Assembly: GCF_001244545.1 (NCBI RefSeq)
Contig: NZ_LN852696.1
Coordinates: 682,001 to 746,000 of the forward strand
Length of the DNA: 64,000 bases
Direction: 5' to 3'
From: Candidatus Stoquefichus sp. SB1
GTDB lineage: Bacteria > Bacillota_I > Bacilli_A > Erysipelotrichales > Coprobacillaceae
Shown here: positions 17,261-54,332 of the stretch, piece after piece
Numbering within the stretch: position 1 is the first letter of the stretch
How the letters are laid out: each line of letters begins with the position of its first letter
Made by a program: the position numbers and the translations under genes
The notes under the pieces: model-generated
The model's database searches: none
What the model was told of the DNA's origin: nothing
Seen by the model: the letters and a program-made list of their open reading frames with translations, nothing else

Positions 17261-18367
<1,107 letters not shown>

Positions 18368-18396
18368 TGTTTTCACCTCCTTTCATTGTTCTAAAA

Positions 18397-20560: not shown

Positions 20561-21214
20561 TTAAGTGTTTTCGAGTTTGAGAATTGTGAGAGTGACTTGT
20601 CCTTCAGTATGAGAAGTATTTGAACTAAAAGTGAGACTAAAAACTGTTGGTGTCTCTACTTGAATCATGAAAGTACAACTTCCCTCAGCTGTTTCTTTAG
20701 CTAATCCTGTACGTGAATATATCCCAAATTCAATATGAGCTGCTGAAAGGTAATAAGGGGTTATTTGCATATAACCATCAGTAGCTAAAAGTGCACTTGC
20801 TTCATAATTAATGAGATAATATCCAGGTTGTAATTGGATTCTTTTGATATCAAGTGGAGAAATATTTTGGGTTGGATCTACAATTGAAGGATATAAGGGG
20901 ATTGTCTCATTGTTTGCAAATTGCATTGCATAATTGGCAAACGATGCAAATGACTGATTCGTTATTCCAGAGGAACCAGTTGGACCTGTGGCACCAGGAA
21001 TTCCTTGAGGACCAGTAGGCCCAGTTGGACCTGTTGCTCCCGTTGCTCCCGTTGCTCCTGTAACGCCAGGAATTCCCTGAGGTCCTGTAGGACCGACTGG
21101 TCCTGTTGCACAGTTAACAATAATAGGAGGACAACAATTGTTTTTTGGATACCAACAATGACAAGCATCACAATTTCTATTTTGTTGTGAATTATTTTCA
21201 AAGAAACTATTCAT
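20561..21214 (-). CDS. BclA-like collagen-repeat spore surface protein, short form
   Basis: A 217-residue protein. The N-terminus MNSFFEN...[20 protein letters not shown] parallels that of the long form (MNNFFEN...[11 protein letters not shown]). Fifteen Gly-X-X triplets follow (residues 38-82). The C-terminal 130 residues form a different beta-rich domain ([25 protein letters not shown]). The shared leader probably directs assembly on the same spore layer, while the tips differ. A CATATACTA element lies upstream. Expression in late sporulation is inferred. Confidence 0.86.
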
Positions 21215-33420: not shown

Positions 33421-34310
33421 CATTTAAATCAGGTTTTGTAAGCATTGTTGGTCGTCCTAATGTTGGAAAATCAACATTATTAAATTATATTTTACAGACA
33501 AAATTGGCGATTACATCAGCAACTGCTCAAACGACACGTAATACGATTCAAGGAATTTATACTGATGATGAAGCTCAGATTATTTTTATGGATACACCTG
33601 GTATTCATAAACCACAAGATGGCTTGGGTTCATTTATGAATACCAATGCGTTAAATAGTATTTATGGGGTTGATCTGGTTTTATTGATTGCACCAGCTGA
33701 TGAAAAGATTGGTAAGGGAGATCGCTTTATTGTTGAAAGATTAAAAGATGCTGATGGTCCTGTTTATTTAATTTTAAATAAGATAGATTTATTAAGTAAA
33801 GATCAGTTGATTATGAAATTAAATGAATGGAAGGAATTGTTTGATTTTAAGGAGATTATTCCAATTAGTGCAATCAATGGTGATAATGTTCAGGATTTAA
33901 TCACAACAATTAAAAATGATTTATCTGAAGGAGTTATGTATTATCCTAAAGATCATTTGACAGATCATCCTGAAAGATTTATCATGGCTGAATTTATTCG
34001 TGAAAAAATTCTTTATTTTACACATGAAGAAGTTCCTCATAGTGTTGCTATTGTCATTGAAAAAATGACAGAAGATGAAGAGGGAGTTCATATTATGGCA
34101 GCTATTGTTGTTGATCGTCCAAGTCAAAAATCTATTTTGATAGGAAAACAGGGGAGTATGATTAAAAAGATTAGACTCAATGCCAGAAAAGAGATGAAAC
34201 GTTTCTTACAAGTTCCAGTGGAATTAGAATTGTTTGTAAAGGTAGAAAAAGATTGGCGTAATAAACAGAAGTATCTCAAGGAGTTTGGATACGATGAAAA
34301 CGACTATTAA
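33417..34310 (+). CDS. era: GTPase Era
   Basis: A 297-residue ribosome-assembly GTPase. G1 is GRPNVGKST, G3 is DTPGI, G4 is NKID. The C-terminal KH domain is visible as SILIGKQGSMIKKI with the GKxG loop. It binds 16S rRNA near its 3' end and the membrane. It overlaps the recO start by 17 bases. Confidence 0.97.
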   Translation: MTFKSGFVSIVGRPNVGKSTLLNYILQTKLAITSATAQTTRNTIQGIYTDDEAQIIFMDTPGIHKPQDGLGSFMNTNALNSIYGVDLVLLIAPADEKIGKGDRFIVERLKDADGPVYLILNKIDLLSKDQLIMKLNEWKELFDFKEIIPISAINGDNVQDLITTIKNDLSEGVMYYPKDHLTDHPERFIMAEFIREKILYFTHEEVPHSVAIVIEKMTEDEEGVHIMAAIVVDRPSQKSILIGKQGSMIKKIRLNARKEMKRFLQVPVELELFVKVEKDWRNKQKYLKEFGYDENDY

Positions 34311-35031
34311 TGAAGTCGTTGTGACAGGAATTATTTTAAAAACAACACCGTATAAAGAAAATGATATGATTTTACATATTTATACACGTGATTATGGCAA
34401 AATAGGTGTCATTGCAAGAGGCGTAAAAAAAATAACAAGCAAAAATGCCCGTGCTTGTCAGCAATTAATGATAAGTGAACTAACGATTCATTTAAAAAAA
34501 GGATTGAGTTCGTTAATGAAAGCAACTCCTATTGATTATCTTAGACATATTAAAGAGCGTCTTGAAAGTGAGATTGTGGCTGATTATATATTAGAATATT
34601 TTTATCGTTATATTGAGGAAAATGCACCTATAGAAAAAGAATATGATATTTTATATGATTGTTTAAAAGCTATTGACAATGGCTATGATCCTCTTGTTGT
34701 TTATCTTTTATTTAATGTTTTTATTTTAGACCATAATGGTGTCTCTTTAGATGTGGAAGGATGTGTTCTTTGCGGAGCATCTCAAGTTGTTTCTATTTCA
34801 TTAGCTGATGGTGGCTTTTTATGTCAAGAACATATCAATGGACATCCGAAATATAGTGTTGAGGTGTTGAAAGGTTTTCGTCATATTCATAAAATTTCCA
34901 TACAATCAATAGATTGTTTGCATTTATCACAAGATGTTATTCATACATTAGTCCCTATTATGGATGGGTTTGTAGAAGAATATACTGGAGTGACATTAAA
35001 AACATCGACATTTATGAAACAAATTGTGTAG
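34294..35031 (+). CDS. recO: DNA repair protein RecO
   Basis: A 245-residue recombination mediator that loads RecA with RecR. The N-terminal OB fold has VVTGIILKTTPYKENDMIL and GKIGVIARGVKK. A zinc-finger-like region appears as CVLCGA with a later LCQEH. The ATG at 34294 follows AAGGAG by 10 bases; the TTG at 34285 sits directly at the RBS. Position after era is conserved in Firmicutes. Confidence 0.93.
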   Translation: MKTTINEVVVTGIILKTTPYKENDMILHIYTRDYGKIGVIARGVKKITSKNARACQQLMISELTIHLKKGLSSLMKATPIDYLRHIKERLESEIVADYILEYFYRYIEENAPIEKEYDILYDCLKAIDNGYDPLVVYLLFNVFILDHNGVSLDVEGCVLCGASQVVSISLADGGFLCQEHINGHPKYSVEVLKGFRHIHKISIQSIDCLHLSQDVIHTLVPIMDGFVEEYTGVTLKTSTFMKQIV

Positions 35032-35077: not shown

Positions 35078-35100
35078 AGGTGCATAAAAGGGGAGACATT

Positions 35101-36915
35101 ATGGGAAATTTTTTACCAACAACAAGAGAAGAAATGTTAGAAAGAGGTTGGCAGCAACCTGATTTTGTTTATATTAGTGGTGATGCCTATGTGGATCATC
35201 CTTCATTTGGTGCAGCTATTATTACCAGAACTTTAGAAAGTCGTGGTTTTAAAGTTTGTTTTTTAGCACAACCAGATTGGCATCATTTAGATGATTTTAA
35301 ACGATTTGGTAAGCCAAAATTAGGTTTTATGATTTCAAGTGGAAATATTGATTCAATGGTGAATCATTACAGTGTTTCTAAGAAAAGAAGAAAAAAAGAT
35401 AGTTATTCTAATAATGGTGAAAGTGGTCATCGTCCTGATCGTGCGGTGATTGTTTATAGTCAAAAAGTGCGTGAAGCTTATAAAGATGCAACGATTCTTA
35501 TTGGTGGTATTGAAGCCAGTTTAAGACGTCTTTCGCATTATGATTATTGGGATGATAAAGTGAGAAAATCAATTTTAGTTGATGCTGGAGCTGATTTACT
35601 AATGTATGGAATGGGTGAAAATAGTGTTGTAGAAATTGCTGAAGCATTGGCAGCAGGAATTGATGCACAATATTTGACTTATCTTGATGGAACTGTTTTT
35701 AAAGTGAAAGATTTATCATTAATTCCTGAAGGATATGTGATGTTACCATCATTTGAAGAAGTATTGCAAGATAAACGTGCTTATGCTAAATCATTTGCCA
35801 TTCAATATCGTAATACTGATCATTTTAATGCAAAAGTATTGGTTGAACCTTATGATGGTTTCTATATTGTCCAAAATAGACCCAATCGTCCATTGACACA
35901 AATGGAGTTTGATGATACATATGCTTTACCTTATCAAAGAACATTTCATCCAATGTATGATTATATTCCAGCCATTGAAGAAGTTCGTTTTTCGCTTATT
36001 AGTAATCGTGGCTGCTTTGGAGCATGTAATTTCTGTGCACTTAATTTTCATCAGGGACGTATTATTCAAACCCGTTCTCATGAATCACTTGTGGACGAAG
36101 CAAAGTTGATGATTTCTGAACCAGATTTTAAAGGATATATTCATGATGTTGGGGGACCAACTGCTAATTTTAGGCAACCAAGCTGTGACAAGCAGGAAAA
36201 ACATGGAGCATGTCCAACAAAACAATGCTTATGGCCAAAGCCTTGTCAGAATTTAAAAGTTGATCATAGTGATTATTTATCACTGTTAAAAAAATTAAGA
36301 TCGCTTGATGGTGTCAAAAAAGTTTTTGTGAGATCAGGGATTAGATATGATTATTTAATGTATGATAAAAATGATCAGTTTTTTAAAGAACTTGTTCAAA
36401 ATCATATTAGTGGACAATTAAAAGTAGCACCTGAACATATCAGTGATCAGGTTTTAGATAAGATGGGGAAACCTCATCGTCAGCTTTATGAGAAATTTGT
36501 AGAGAAATATCAGAAACTCAATAAAGATTTAGGAAAAAATCAATATTTGGTTCCTTATTTAATGTCATCACATCCAGGCAGTGATTTACAAAGTGCGATT
36601 GAGTTGGCCGAATATTTGCGTGATATTCGCCATCAGCCTGAACAGGTTCAGGACTTTTATCCAACTCCAGGAACTCTTTCAACAGCAATGTATTATACAG
36701 AACTTGATCCTCGTGATATGACACCTGTTTATGTCGCAAAAACACCAAAAGAAAAAGCAATGCAAAGAGCACTTATGCAATATCGTCATCCTAAAAATTA
36801 TCATCTTGTTTATGAAGCTTTAATGCTTGCAAAACGTCAAGATTTGATAGGGTTTGATCAAAAATGCTTGATTAAACCAAAAGGACAATTTCGTCCACTA
36901 AAGAGGAGGTTATAG
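35101..36915 (+). CDS. YgiQ/UPF0313-family radical SAM protein
   Basis: A 604-residue protein. The N-terminal domain has FVYISGDAYVDHPSFGAAI, a cobalamin-binding-like Rossmann fold of the UPF0313 family. The radical SAM cluster is NRGCFGACNFCAL (CxxxCxxC). Four further cysteines around SCDKQEKHGACPTKQCLWP may hold a second cluster. Function is not established. The ATG at 35101 follows AAGGGGAG; a GTG at 35080 is less likely. The hydrolase gene follows by 2 bases. Confidence 0.93.
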   Translation: MGNFLPTTREEMLERGWQQPDFVYISGDAYVDHPSFGAAIITRTLESRGFKVCFLAQPDWHHLDDFKRFGKPKLGFMISSGNIDSMVNHYSVSKKRRKKDSYSNNGESGHRPDRAVIVYSQKVREAYKDATILIGGIEASLRRLSHYDYWDDKVRKSILVDAGADLLMYGMGENSVVEIAEALAAGIDAQYLTYLDGTVFKVKDLSLIPEGYVMLPSFEEVLQDKRAYAKSFAIQYRNTDHFNAKVLVEPYDGFYIVQNRPNRPLTQMEFDDTYALPYQRTFHPMYDYIPAIEEVRFSLISNRGCFGACNFCALNFHQGRIIQTRSHESLVDEAKLMISEPDFKGYIHDVGGPTANFRQPSCDKQEKHGACPTKQCLWPKPCQNLKVDHSDYLSLLKKLRSLDGVKKVFVRSGIRYDYLMYDKNDQFFKELVQNHISGQLKVAPEHISDQVLDKMGKPHRQLYEKFVEKYQKLNKDLGKNQYLVPYLMSSHPGSDLQSAIELAEYLRDIRHQPEQVQDFYPTPGTLSTAMYYTELDPRDMTPVYVAKTPKEKAMQRALMQYRHPKNYHLVYEALMLAKRQDLIGFDQKCLIKPKGQFRPLKRRL

Positions 36916-36917
36916 AT

Positions 36918-37835
36918 ATGAAGAGAACAGAGACATATACATCTTGCATGCATGTTCATGTTCGATATCATGTTTATGAGCCAAAAGTTGTTTTAAGAGT
37001 GAAAGGCGTTGTTCAGATCCATCATGGTATTGGAGAACATGCTGATCGTTATGAACATTTTGCTTCTTATCTTTTAAATCAGGGATTTGTTGTGGTTGTC
37101 AGCGATTTTGCAGGACATGGAAAATCATTAATTGATTTTGAACAGGGTTATTTTGGTAAAGAAAATGGACCAGAAAACTTGGTTAAAGATATGCATCATT
37201 TACAGCAAATCATGCGTCGCCGTTATCCAGACGTTCCTTATTTTATGTTAGGAAGTGATTTGGGATCTGTTTTGATTCGTAAATATGTAAGTGAATATGG
37301 TGATTTTATTGAAGGCATTATATTATTAGGAACCCAAACTGAAGTAGAACATCGATATCTTAAAAAGATTTATTTGCAGTTGCTTAAAATATGGAAAGGA
37401 CCATTATATAAAGCTAATCATTATTTTCGTTCTTTTCATCAGCGTTATAATCAAAGAATTCATCAGTCTGAAAGTGATGTTGATTGGTTGACGAGTGATG
37501 ATGAAGAAAAAAGAAAATTTTTAGCCGATCCAATGACTCATTTTTCATATACTGTTCAAGGTTATCGAGATATTATTCATACAATTAATGAAGTGAATGG
37601 TGAAGAATCTATTTGTAAAATTCCACAGTATCTTTCGATATATATTGGAGTTGGAGAATTAGATCCAATGTGTAAAAAAACACAAAAATTGGTTGATCAA
37701 TATAAAAAAATAGGGATTAGAGATTTAACAGTTCATGTTTTTAAAGGAAAAAGACATGCCTTGTTATTTGAAAAAGGGAAACAAGAGATTTATCAAAATA
37801 TATTAAATTGGTTAAATGAAAGAACATATTTGTAG
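36918..37835 (+). CDS. Alpha/beta hydrolase (monoacylglycerol-lipase-like) with Asp at the nucleophile
   Basis: A 305-residue Hydrolase_4-type protein. The oxyanion region HHGIGEHADRYEHFA and the segment DFAGHGKS are typical. The nucleophile elbow reads MLGSDLGS; relatives have GHSMGS, so Ser is replaced by Asp. The acid is expected in GELDPM and the histidine in KGKRHALLFE, both present. Either the enzyme uses an Asp nucleophile (as in dehalogenases and epoxide hydrolases) or it is inactive. Co-transcribed with the radical SAM gene. Confidence 0.85.
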   Translation: MKRTETYTSCMHVHVRYHVYEPKVVLRVKGVVQIHHGIGEHADRYEHFASYLLNQGFVVVVSDFAGHGKSLIDFEQGYFGKENGPENLVKDMHHLQQIMRRRYPDVPYFMLGSDLGSVLIRKYVSEYGDFIEGIILLGTQTEVEHRYLKKIYLQLLKIWKGPLYKANHYFRSFHQRYNQRIHQSESDVDWLTSDDEEKRKFLADPMTHFSYTVQGYRDIIHTINEVNGEESICKIPQYLSIYIGVGELDPMCKKTQKLVDQYKKIGIRDLTVHVFKGKRHALLFEKGKQEIYQNILNWLNERTYL

Positions 37836-37881
37836 TATACCCTTATTGTTGGTTGACAAATAACCACTATAAGGGTATAAC
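37836..37881 (+). promoter_or_regulatory. glyS promoter inside an 11-base inverted repeat
   Basis: TTGACA (37853-37858), 17 bases, TATAAC (37876-37881). Arms TATACCCTTAT (37836-37846) and ATAAGGGTATA (37869-37879) flank it perfectly, with an inner GGTT/AACC pair. No T tract follows, so it looks more like an operator than a terminator. Confidence 0.65.
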
Positions 37882-37914
37882 TACATACGATAATACATAT
37901 TATAGGGAGATTAT

Positions 37915-37936
37915 GACTTGGCGAATAGGCTAAGTC
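37915..37936 (+). promoter_or_regulatory. Leader hairpin before glyS
   Basis: GACTTGGC pairs with GCTAAGTC (8 pairs, one G-U) around GAATAG. There is no T-box TGGNACC element or terminator nearby. Confidence 0.4.
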
Positions 37937-37984
37937 TTTCATACTTTATATAAGTGTATAAAATTTGTAAAAAGGGGTATAAAT

Positions 37985-39355
37985 ATGGCAAATAAAGATA
38001 TGGATAAATTAATTGCACATGCAAAAAATTCAGGATTTGTATATCAAGGTTCTGAAATTTATGATGGTTTGGCAAACACATGGGATTATGGTCCTTTAGG
38101 TGTTGAAATGAAAAACAATATCAAAAAATTATGGTGGAAACGATTCATTCAGGAATCGCCTTATAATGTTGGATTGGATTCTGCTATATTTATGAATCCA
38201 CGTGTATGGGAAGCCAGTGGGCATGTTGGTGGATTTAGTGATCCTTTAATTGATTGTAAAAACTGTAAAACGAGACATCGTGCTGATAAGTTAATTGAAG
38301 CTTATGATCCAGATGTGCATAGTGATGGCTGGGAACCAGAAAAAATGATGAACTATATTAGAGAACATCATATTCAATGTCCTGACTGTGGCAGTGAAGA
38401 TTTTACAGATATTCGTGAATTTGAATTGATGTTTAAGACGTATATGGGAGTTGTTAAAGATGCAAAAAATACAGTGTATTTACGTCCAGAAACAGCTCAG
38501 GGAATATTTGTTAATTTTAAAAATATACAAAGAACATCACGTAAAAAAGTACCATTTGGAATTGGTCAAATTGGGAAATCTTTTAGAAATGAGATTACAC
38601 CAGGTAACTTTATTTTTAGAACAAGAGAATTTGAACAAATGGAATTGGAATTTTTCTGTAAACCAGATACAGATTTAGATTGGTTCCATTACTGGAAAGA
38701 TGGATGTATGCAATTCTTACTTGATCTTGGATTGTCAAAAGAAAATTTAAGATTTAGAGATCATGAAAAAGAAGAGTTATCTTTCTATTCTAAAGCAACA
38801 AGTGATATTGAATATTTATATCCATTTGGATGGGGTGAATTATGGGGAATTGCTGATAGAACTGATTATGATTTATCAAGACATCAGGAGTTTTCTAAAA
38901 AGAATTTGGAATATTTAGATCCAGAAACAAATCAAAAGTATATTCCATATGTTATTGAACCATCTGTAGGAGCTGATCGTTTATTCTTATCTGTTTTAGC
39001 AGATGCTTATGATGAAGAACAGTTAGAAAATGACACACGTACAGTCATGCATTTACATCCTGCTGTTGCACCTGTGAAAGCAGCTATTCTACCATTAACA
39101 AAGAAACAAAGTGATAAAGCAATGGAAATTTATACACTTTTAGCTCAAGAATTTAATGTTGAATTCGATGTGGCAGGACAAATTGGAAAACGTTATCGTC
39201 GTCAAGATGCTATTGGAACACCTTATTGTATTACTGTTGATTTTGATACAGATGCAAATCAATCAGTGACACTAAGAGATCGTGATACAATGGAACAAAT
39301 TCGTTTGCCAATTGATGAGTTAGTGGCTTATATTCAACAAAAAATTAAATTTTAG
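37985..39355 (+). CDS. glyS: Glycyl-tRNA synthetase, dimeric (alpha2) type
   Basis: A 456-residue class II synthetase that charges tRNA-Gly. Motif 2 is visible in [13 protein letters not shown] and motif 3 in [12 protein letters not shown]. The start [36 protein letters not shown] and a zinc-like C-x2-C pair (CKNC ... CPDCGS) fit the eukaryote-like form. AAAAGGGG precedes the ATG. Follows its own promoter; dnaG is 18 bases downstream. Confidence 0.96.
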
Positions 39356-39373
39356 TGAAAGGAGAGGACATTT

Positions 39374-41131
39374 ATGGCACGTCTATCACAAGAGAAAATC
39401 AATGAAATAAGACAGAGCGTTGATATTGTTGATGTGATTGGACAGTATCTTTCTTTAGAAAAAAAAGGAAGAAATTATATAGCTTTATGTCCTTTTCATG
39501 ATGATAGTCGACCTTCTATGTCGGTATCACCTGATAAACAGATATTTATGTGTTTTGTATGTGGAACTGGTGGAAATGTTTTTAGTTTTTTACAAAAATA
39601 TCTAAAGATATCATACATAGAAGCAGTTAAAAAAGTTGCTGAAATGGGTCGAGTGGATTTAAGTGAGTATCATTTAGATGTCGAAAAAAGACCGGAGAAC
39701 CCGCAACATGTCGCACTTTATCAAATGCACCAGGAAGCACAGAAAATTTATAGTTATTATTTAAATACAAAACTTGGTTTAGAAGCCAAGACATATCTTA
39801 TGAATCGTCATTTTACTGATGAATTGATCAAAGAATTTCAAATTGGTTATGCTCCCATTGATCCCGTTTTGCATACGGCTTTTTCAAAATTAGGATATCA
39901 TGAAATTGATATGGCTAAATCTGGACTGGTGATTGAGTCACAAAGTCATTTTGACCGCTTTAATGATCGTATCATGTTTCCTTTATATAATCAGCAAGGA
40001 CAAGTTGTTGGTTTTAGTGGACGTATTTATAAGCCGACGCAAAGTGATAGTAAGTATATGAACTCTCCAGAGTCAGAAATCTTTATTAAAGGACAAACAT
40101 TATATCACTATCATCAATGTCGTGAAGCAGTGAAACAAGCTGGCTTTGTATATCTGTTAGAAGGCTTTATGGATGTGATTGCAATGTATAAGGCTGGAAT
40201 TGAAAATACAGTTGCGATTATGGGAACGGCACTTACAAAAGGTCATATTCAAGCGTTGCGTCGTTTGACCAATACTGTTTATTTGTGTTTAGATGGAGAT
40301 CAAGCTGGACAGGCTGCAATGAGTAAAGCAGCCTATGAATTAGAAGCGGCTGGCTTTAAGGTTAAGATTATTATTTTACCTGATGGTCATGATCCTGATG
40401 AAATTTATGAAGAACATGGTAAGACAGGTCTTGAGGAAGCACTTCGTAGGACGTTAAAGCCAATTGAATTTTTAATGGAGTTTGAATATCGAATGGTTGA
40501 TCCTTTGAATTATGATGATCGAAAAAACTATTTAGAAAAAATGTGTTTTGAAATTACACAATTGAATGATGATATTGATCGTGATTATTATATGCACATT
40601 CTTTCGTCAAAATCAGGTTTTTCTTATGAGGTGATTTTACAGCATGTTGCTGGTATGAAGCCTAAACATCAGGAAGAATATATTCATCGTGAAGTGAAAA
40701 AAACAATTCAACTGGTAGATAAATATAAAAAAGCTGAACATGATCTGCTCTTTTATATGTTAAACAATAAAGCTGTTGCTTTAAAGTATGAGGCGAAAGC
40801 AGGTTTTATGTATAATGACCAATATCGTGTTTTGGCTTCTTATATTGTTGACTATTATCGTCATCATAATCATATTGAGGTGGCAGATTTAATTGATAGT
40901 ATACAAAAAGAAGAATTGATACAAACTGTGTTAGAAATATCACAATCAGCATTGCCATTACCTTGTGAAGAACAAGCGATTGATGATTATATTCAGACAA
41001 TTGCTAGCAATGCTAGAAAAATGAAAAAAGAACAACTATTAGAACAGTTTAATTATATTTTAGATCCGAGTCAGAAGGCTCAGATTTTAAGTGAGATAGT
41101 CAAATTAGAGAGTGAAAAGGAGTCTATATGA
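39374..41131 (+). CDS. dnaG: DNA primase
   Basis: A 585-residue primase. The CHC2 zinc finger is CPFHDD...[10 protein letters not shown]. The TOPRIM domain has [25 protein letters not shown] and the DGHDPDE block. The C-terminal helicase-binding region is less conserved. It overlaps rpoD by 4 bases in the classic macromolecular synthesis operon. Confidence 0.97.
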
Positions 41132-52700: not shown

Positions 52701-52731
52701 TTGACAATCCCTAAGGGACTACCTCTAAGAT
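52701..52731 (+). promoter_or_regulatory. MerR-type promoter (19-base spacer) before the MutS-like gene
   Basis: TTGACA (52701-52706) and TAAGAT (52726-52731) are 19 bases apart, and the spacer contains the palindrome CCCTAAGGG. This geometry is characteristic of MerR-activated promoters. Confidence 0.6.
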
Positions 52732-52753
52732 GGCATTAAAGGGGGAAATAATA

Positions 52754-54332
52754 ATGGTTATTTTTATATTTGTTATTATTGTTGTTGGTTTTATGTTAGC
52801 GGTTATTTGTGCACGTTATGTTCATAAATGGATTGTTGTAAGAAGATTAACACGTCTTTTTGGTTATCCTATTAATGATGATTCATTTCATTATCTTAAT
52901 AAGGAGTACTATCATCAATTATCTCAAAAAGAGATTACATCGACAATTGTGGATGATTTTGAATTAGATCGTGTTTTTAATTTGATGAATAGAACTTATA
53001 GTGATGTTGGAAGAGAATATATGTATGCTCAGCTTTTTTCTTCGCAGCATCAACATGTTCTTTTAGAATCTATTATTTCAAACTTACAAGATCCAAAAAA
53101 ATTTAAAAAAACATTATATGAACTTTATCGTTTAAGTCAAACTTATAGTGAATCATTAGAATTATTTGAACACTTACAATTTTTATCTCGTTTTGATTTT
53201 TTCATTGTTATTGTGTCATCACTATGCCCTTTGCTTTTTTTAGGGGCTGGTTTGATATATAGTGTCCAAGTTTTTCAATATGTTATTTTATGGATTTCTT
53301 TACAAGGTATGCTTTATGCACATTATACTAAGAAAACCAACCATGCACTCACGCAGGCATCAAGTTATTGTTATTTGGCATCTACTTTAAATAAGTTAAA
53401 TAGATTGTCTATCTATCCACAGGCAGAAACAGAAAAAATTAAACGAATGACACATACAGCATTACGTTATACATGGATTAATAAGATTGATGATTTTGTT
53501 TCTGATATTGATGTGTTTTATATTATGGAACTGATAAAGGGAATCTTTTCTTTACCTATATATCAATGTTATTTTTTGAAAAAACATAGTGATGAATTGA
53601 TTGATGATTTTTTAAAAATGTATGAATATGTAGGGATTGTTGACATGGCAATTGCAATTATGTCTATACGTCAAAGTTATGCAACTTGTATCCCTGAAAT
53701 AAGAGTAGAAGAGGGAATATGCTTTCAGGAATGTTATCATCCTTTATTAGAAGAGCCAGTAAAGAATTCTTTTTCAACGCACTGTTCATGTCTGATTACA
53801 GGATCAAATGCATCTGGGAAATCAACTTTCTTAAAGACAATTGGAGTGAATATAATGATGGCAAAAGCCTATCATACATGTTTTGCTGATGAATTTTTCG
53901 TATTATCCCTACTATTTGTGTAGTTCGATTCATATGAAAGATGATATCGAATCAGGTGATAGTTATTATGTGAAGGAAATCAAAACATTAAAAACAATTT
54001 TAGATCATGTTAAGCAACAAAAATGTATTGTTTTTATTGATGAAATACTAAGAGGAACAAATGAAAAAGAAAGGGTAATGATTGCTAAAGCTATTTTACA
54101 GTTTCTATTTTCATCAGATTCATTGATTTTTGTGACAACCCATGATTTATCGATTGTTCAATCGTTTGATGATATTGATAAATATTGTTTTAATGATTAT
54201 ATTCACCATAATGAACTTTGTAGTGATTATAAAATTAAGCATGGTGTTTGTACAGTAGGTAATGCTATTGCATTATTGGAGGTCTATGGTTTTGATCAGG
54301 ATGTTATTAGTGAATTAAAAAAGCCTATCTAG
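52754..54332 (+). pseudogene. MutS-like ATPase with membrane N-terminus, interrupted by a frameshift
   Basis: Two frames together give a MutS-family protein of about 525 residues. An N-terminal helix (VIFIFVIIVVGFMLAVICA) and another hydrophobic pair near 160-185 place it in the membrane. The helical MutS core and ATPase follow: Walker A ITGSNASGKSTFLK in frame 1, Walker B CIVFIDEILRGTN and FVTTHD in frame 2. The switch is at the T5 run at 53894-53898; with four Ts the reading ADEFSYYPYYLCSSIHM continues. Frame 1 stops at 53923. Mismatch-recognition domains are absent. A real mutation, slippage or a read error are all possible. Confidence 0.8.

Follow-up and report, generated by a model that had tools for sequence, protein, structure and literature searches.

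Proteins of the monoglyceride lipase (Hydrolase_4) type are recognised by a Ser in a GxSxG elbow. The window analysed here, a stretch of 64,000 nucleotides from Candidatus Stoquefichus sp. SB1, holds a gene whose product resembles these enzymes and has an Asp in place of this Ser. The locus raises the question of whether the protein uses Asp as a nucleophile, carries out another chemistry or has kept the fold of a lipase and given up its reaction.

A monoglyceride-lipase-like protein with Asp at the nucleophile position

The ORF 36918-37835 on the forward strand starts with ATG and codes for 305 amino acid residues. The features of the locus are as follows (window coordinates, all on the forward strand).

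34285..35031, forward: ORF that we take to be recO (context)
35080..36915, forward: radical SAM gene of the ygiQ family, immediately upstream (context; TIGR03904, E 1.2e-258)
36904..36909, forward: AGGAGG, putative ribosome-binding site within the 3' end of ygiQ, read in the sequence
36918..37835, forward: gene for an alpha/beta-hydrolase-fold protein (Hydrolase_4, monoglyceride-lipase-like) without the nucleophile Ser, based on ORF, Pfam, PDB search, AlphaFold2 model and superposition
37023..37028, forward: oxyanion loop H36-G37 (HG), read in the sequence; Asp replaces G37 in the branch with a Gly elbow
37251..37268, forward: elbow GSDLGS (G112-S-D114-L-G-S117); the codon 37257-37259 is GAT, giving Asp114 where Ser is expected
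37662..37664, forward: triad acid position Asp249, in GELDP, kept in 38/38 orthologues
37755..37757, forward: triad base position His280, in KRHAL, kept in 14/14 and 8/8 rows of two branches and in 4/16 of the third
37985..39355, forward: ORF that is presumably glyS, the glycyl-tRNA synthetase gene, downstream (context)

The hydrolase ORF follows the ygiQ stop codon at a distance of 2 nt and, with the AGGAGG inside the 3' end of that gene, is probably translationally coupled to it. A search of Rfam for positions 36000-39500 of the window found no RNA element. The ORFs presumed to be recO and glyS served as the RecO and GlyS queries in the genome comparisons described below.

The protein matched the Pfam family Hydrolase_4 with an E value of 5.6e-39 and 134.3 bits, compared to a curated cut-off of 27. 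Its closest solved relatives were a Bacillus coagulans carboxylesterase and monoglyceride lipases, which agrees with the monoacylglycerol-lipase-like family named in the first-pass annotation. An AlphaFold2 model built from an alignment of 42 sequences had a mean pLDDT of 91.2 and a pTM of 0.91. When the model was superposed on the carboxylesterase structure 5o7g, 300 residues were matched with an rmsd of 2.1, a Z score of 39.7 and 26% identity, and monoglyceride lipases superposed as well. The elbow was predicted as a strand (residues 108-113) followed by a helix (115-130), the layout usual for this fold. With the carboxylesterase (5o7g/5olu) and with monoglyceride lipases of bacterial or human origin (6eic, 3hju) the window protein shares the fold, the cap, the positions of the acid and the His, and the HG and GHG motifs. 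As the same annotation had stated, Asp249 and His280 are in place. The elbow differs: 5o7g reads GHSMGS there, whereas the window protein and all its orthologues lack the Ser. The same genome has a second copy of the family (L002), with a GHSMGS elbow.

Two neighbouring serines were considered as replacement nucleophiles and rejected. Position 113, adjacent to the Asp, is S, T, V, I, Y or H in the subclade of the window protein, and Ser117 is equivalent to the Ser that follows GHSMG in the relatives.

The gene has a fixed place in one bacterial family

A syntenic orthologue between recO or ygiQ and glyS was found in 39 of the 43 genomes of the bacterial family. The gene downstream was glyS in 38/39 cases, and recO or ygiQ lay upstream in 37/39. 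At the glyS locus of two genomes, G006 (ygiQ-glyS) and G018 (recO-glyS), the hydrolase gene was missing; the other two genomes without an orthologue were an incomplete one (G008) and one with glyS at a contig edge (G039). The reading frame was open in 38 of the 39 orthologues and interrupted near residue 204 in the remaining one (L094, G023:C19). In the alignment, the cap is shorter by about 15 residues in the orthologues L114 and L116, which come from two genomes of one genus (G031, G032). The orthologue of Longibaculum muris shares 76% identity with the window protein.

The other family of the order had no hydrolase gene beside glyS in 26 genomes, among which RecO was recognised in 20 and one upstream flank (L192) was ended by the contig end. 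A blastp match in that family (L173, 4.9e-4) lay on the strand opposite recO and was regarded as a chance match. When a profile of the orthologues was searched against a phylum sample of 392 genomes, matches above 251 bits came only from the family of the window. Because of the results with the 26 and the 392 genomes, the hydrolase gene at the recO/ygiQ-glyS place appears special to this family, as far as sampled.

All orthologues lack the elbow Ser, probably after a single loss

The elbow codons of the 39 orthologues specified Asp in 17, Gly in 10, Glu in 7, Gln in 4 and Asn in 1, and Ser in none; in the 38 full-length rows the counts were D16, G10, E7, Q4 and N1. The reading of GSDLGS with Asp114 at the nucleophile position, made in the first-pass annotation, is confirmed. 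Since non-Ser residues occur in all 39 orthologues from 39 genomes, a sequencing error was rejected, and so was a mutation of a single strain with Ser in all close relatives, the case that the first-pass annotation had set against its own reading. Outside the clade, 118 of 121 relatives had Ser at the elbow, as had 60/60 further ones from outside the family (together 178/181). The three relatives without it were L013 (Asn), L072 (Asp) and L147 (Gly). In L013 (5001-5918, a Lachnospiraceae MAG) the elbow reads GHNMGS, and in L072 (5001-5840, a Ruminococcus MAG) GHDMGS. Both lack Ser at the same position as the clade but stand as isolated rows elsewhere in the tree and are independent losses. Further Asp variants, for which the first-pass annotation had proposed to look in a phylogeny, occur among the orthologues and in the separate L072.

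For the tree, 108 rows were taken from the 160 in the alignment; the columns 114, 248 and 280 were omitted and the acid column 249 was kept in. The 38 full-length orthologues formed one clade with an SH-aLRT of 100 and a stem of 0.81. Over the whole tree, the replacement of Ser requires 4 changes, once for the clade and once for each of the three single rows, and the elbow letter changed at least 7 times within the clade. Three parts, A, B and C, make up the clade. The node of A has 91, and stars mark both the unity of B and the separation of C from the half with the window protein. Branch A, which includes the window protein, has 14 rows with Asp in 13 and Asn in one, and both the acid and His280 in 14/14. 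In branch B, all 8 rows have Gly at the elbow and keep His280. Branch C has 16 rows with E7, Q4, D3 and G2, and His280 is gone in 12 of them. Asp249 is therefore found in 38/38 and His280 in 26/38 of the full-length orthologues. The oxyanion residue Gly37 is replaced by Ala in 9 and by Asp in 8 of these rows.

The variability of column 114 was ranked by entropy among the columns of the alignment. It was at the 58th percentile in the clade and at the 28th within A, versus the 7th in the Ser-bearing relatives. Residues that are fixed or nearly so in the clade and differ in most relatives include Y20, R27, L71 and Y211 (each 38/38), E75 (37) and Q76 (36). For 10 pairs of orthologues the dN/dS was between 0.047 and 0.165, and for two pairs of Ser-bearing paralogues it was 0.118 and 0.279. 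We therefore conclude that the gene is maintained under purifying selection and is not decaying.

The clade is probably a folded pseudo-hydrolase

In the window protein the Hydrolase_4 profile is matched above its cut-off, the fold is of the monoglyceride lipase type and the triad Asp and His are present, whereas the Ser in GxSxG is replaced by Asp114 and is found in 0/39 orthologues. A fold that is kept and a nucleophile that is replaced throughout a conserved lineage are marks of a pseudoenzyme. We consider it probable that the clade is an ancient, maintained and folded pseudo-hydrolase without lipolytic activity, derived from an esterase of the monoglyceride lipase type. According to this proposal, a gene of the monoglyceride lipase/carboxylesterase type would have come between recO (or ygiQ) and glyS in the ancestor of the bacterial family, and the nucleophile Ser would have been lost before the living genera split. 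Afterwards the protein would have been kept as a folded, non-lipolytic pseudo-hydrolase that does not hydrolyse esters by a serine mechanism. The Asp of the window protein would then be one of several polar or small residues tolerated in the former active site, and not a nucleophile. The kept pocket, together with Y20, R27, L71, E75, Q76 and Y211, may serve to bind a ligand or another protein, as happens in other proteins of this fold that are not enzymes; judged from their conservation, these six residues are candidates for the binding surface.

Two observations on the alignment temper this proposal. Subclade A, with Asp in 13/14 rows, Asn in one and the acid and His in 14/14, could still be capable of chemistry. 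Likewise, the Asp37 that accompanies a Gly elbow with kept His (9/9) looks like the retention of a carboxylate in the pocket and not like free decay.

A known case for comparison is the NDRG proteins, which have an HD and a GxGxG pattern. The Gly elbow and the HD of branch B resemble this pattern. NDRG proteins are described in PMC7022630 as non-enzymatic, with the alpha/beta-hydrolase fold kept and the nucleophile replaced; in NDRG3 all three triad positions are replaced, according to the same source, whereas the clade has Asp249 in every row and His280 in 26/38. Kinship to this group was rejected, as NDRG3 matched the profile of branch B only with E values of 0.33-0.54. Neither the window protein nor 7 other proteins had an Ndr match in Pfam at E 0.001. 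In the literature, judged at the level of search results, we recognised no description of the clade or of a monoglyceride lipase with an Asp elbow.

By the family match alone, the protein would be annotated throughout a family of gut bacteria as an active lipase or lysophospholipase, and the sequences say that it probably is not. The 38 full-length orthologues are natural variants at one former active-site position, ordered on a tree, so that the route by which a serine hydrolase became a pseudo-hydrolase, or took up a new chemistry, can be tested directly. The gene's constant position in a housekeeping cluster, next to recO and glyS, leads one to ask what role a protein of lipase shape has there.

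Alternative explanations

The chief alternative, which we hold to be unlikely, is that two of the three branches are still enzymes, with a new, non-covalent chemistry. Asp114, or Asp37 where the elbow is Gly, would act with His280-Asp249 as general acid/base or would bind a cationic ligand. This possibility draws on the pairing of the residues 114 and 37. Whenever a Gly elbow occurred together with a kept His280, position 37 was Asp (9/9 rows, namely the 8 of branch B and the unrelated paralogue L147). None of the 118 rows with Ser had Asp37, and the two branch C rows with Gly, both of which lack His280, did not have it either. The pairing arose independently in branch B and in L147 and, because there are two events only, cannot reach significance (sign test, p 0.5). 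The HD and GxGxG pattern is, moreover, shared with the NDRG proteins that are reported to be non-enzymatic, and in the third branch these positions have retained neither the His nor a constant carboxylate. L147 (G025:C47:5488-9297), which stands outside the clade, has a Gly elbow of its own, GQGMGA, with HD in the oxyanion loop and an intact acid and His.

The same residues allow a broader statement, which we regard as quite unlikely: the clade might be reprogrammed and not dead, with a pocket carboxylate facing His280-Asp249 that was kept after the loss of the Ser, is Asp114 in A and was relocated to Asp37, with a Gly elbow, in the sister branch and again in L147. If true, a carboxylate for catalysis or ligand binding would have changed its place within the alpha/beta-hydrolase fold.

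To a third possibility we give little probability, namely that in the 14 full-length rows of branch A Asp114 is a true nucleophile that forms an alkyl-ester intermediate hydrolysed by His280-Asp249, as in epoxide hydrolases and haloalkane dehalogenases. The parallel to these enzymes had been pointed out in the first-pass annotation. An elbow Asp with acid and His is common to them and to the window subclade, in which Asp was present in 13/14 rows and the two partners in 14/14, and the predicted elbow fits the fold. However, the Trp that follows the Asp nucleophile of haloalkane dehalogenases is their halide site, and in branch A the Asp (or Asn) is followed by L, I or M in 14/14 rows, with L in the window protein. 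In the haloalkane dehalogenase structure of PMC7034887 the two residues are D124 and W125. Epoxide hydrolases have an HGXP motif, and the two presented in PMC6198070 also have Trp after the Asp. The window protein reads HGIG and the loop in A is HG[ILMF][GS], so that position 39 is G or S and never P in 14/14 rows. Both the HGXP motif and the aromatic residue after the Asp are thus absent from this subclade. In addition, one row of A has Asn, the sister branch with Gly in 8/8 rows and the other sister branch show a drift of the elbow to residues unable to act as nucleophiles, and the PDB matches of the window protein in phmmer were esterases and lipases. For the clade as a whole, the idea of an Asp nucleophile is not supported: D, G, E, Q and N all occur at the elbow, whose column is no less variable than an ordinary one, and His280 is largely lost in one branch.

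A pseudogene in decay, or an artefact of the assembly, is barely credible: one interrupted frame among 39 orthologues (L094) and the missing gene in G006 and G018 point that way, but the 38 open frames, the conserved synteny and the low dN/dS in all 10 orthologue pairs speak against it.

Other features of the window

Two further observations were made outside the locus. A gene for a MutS-family ATPase at 52730-54332 on the forward strand is split into two overlapping ORFs in different frames, 52730-53923 and 53883-54332. As the two ORFs match consecutive parts of MutS2/KamC-like profiles, this indicates a frameshift, either real or from the assembly. On the reverse strand, the ORFs 17261-18376 and 20561-21214 are collagen-like and contain long Gly-X-Y repeats.
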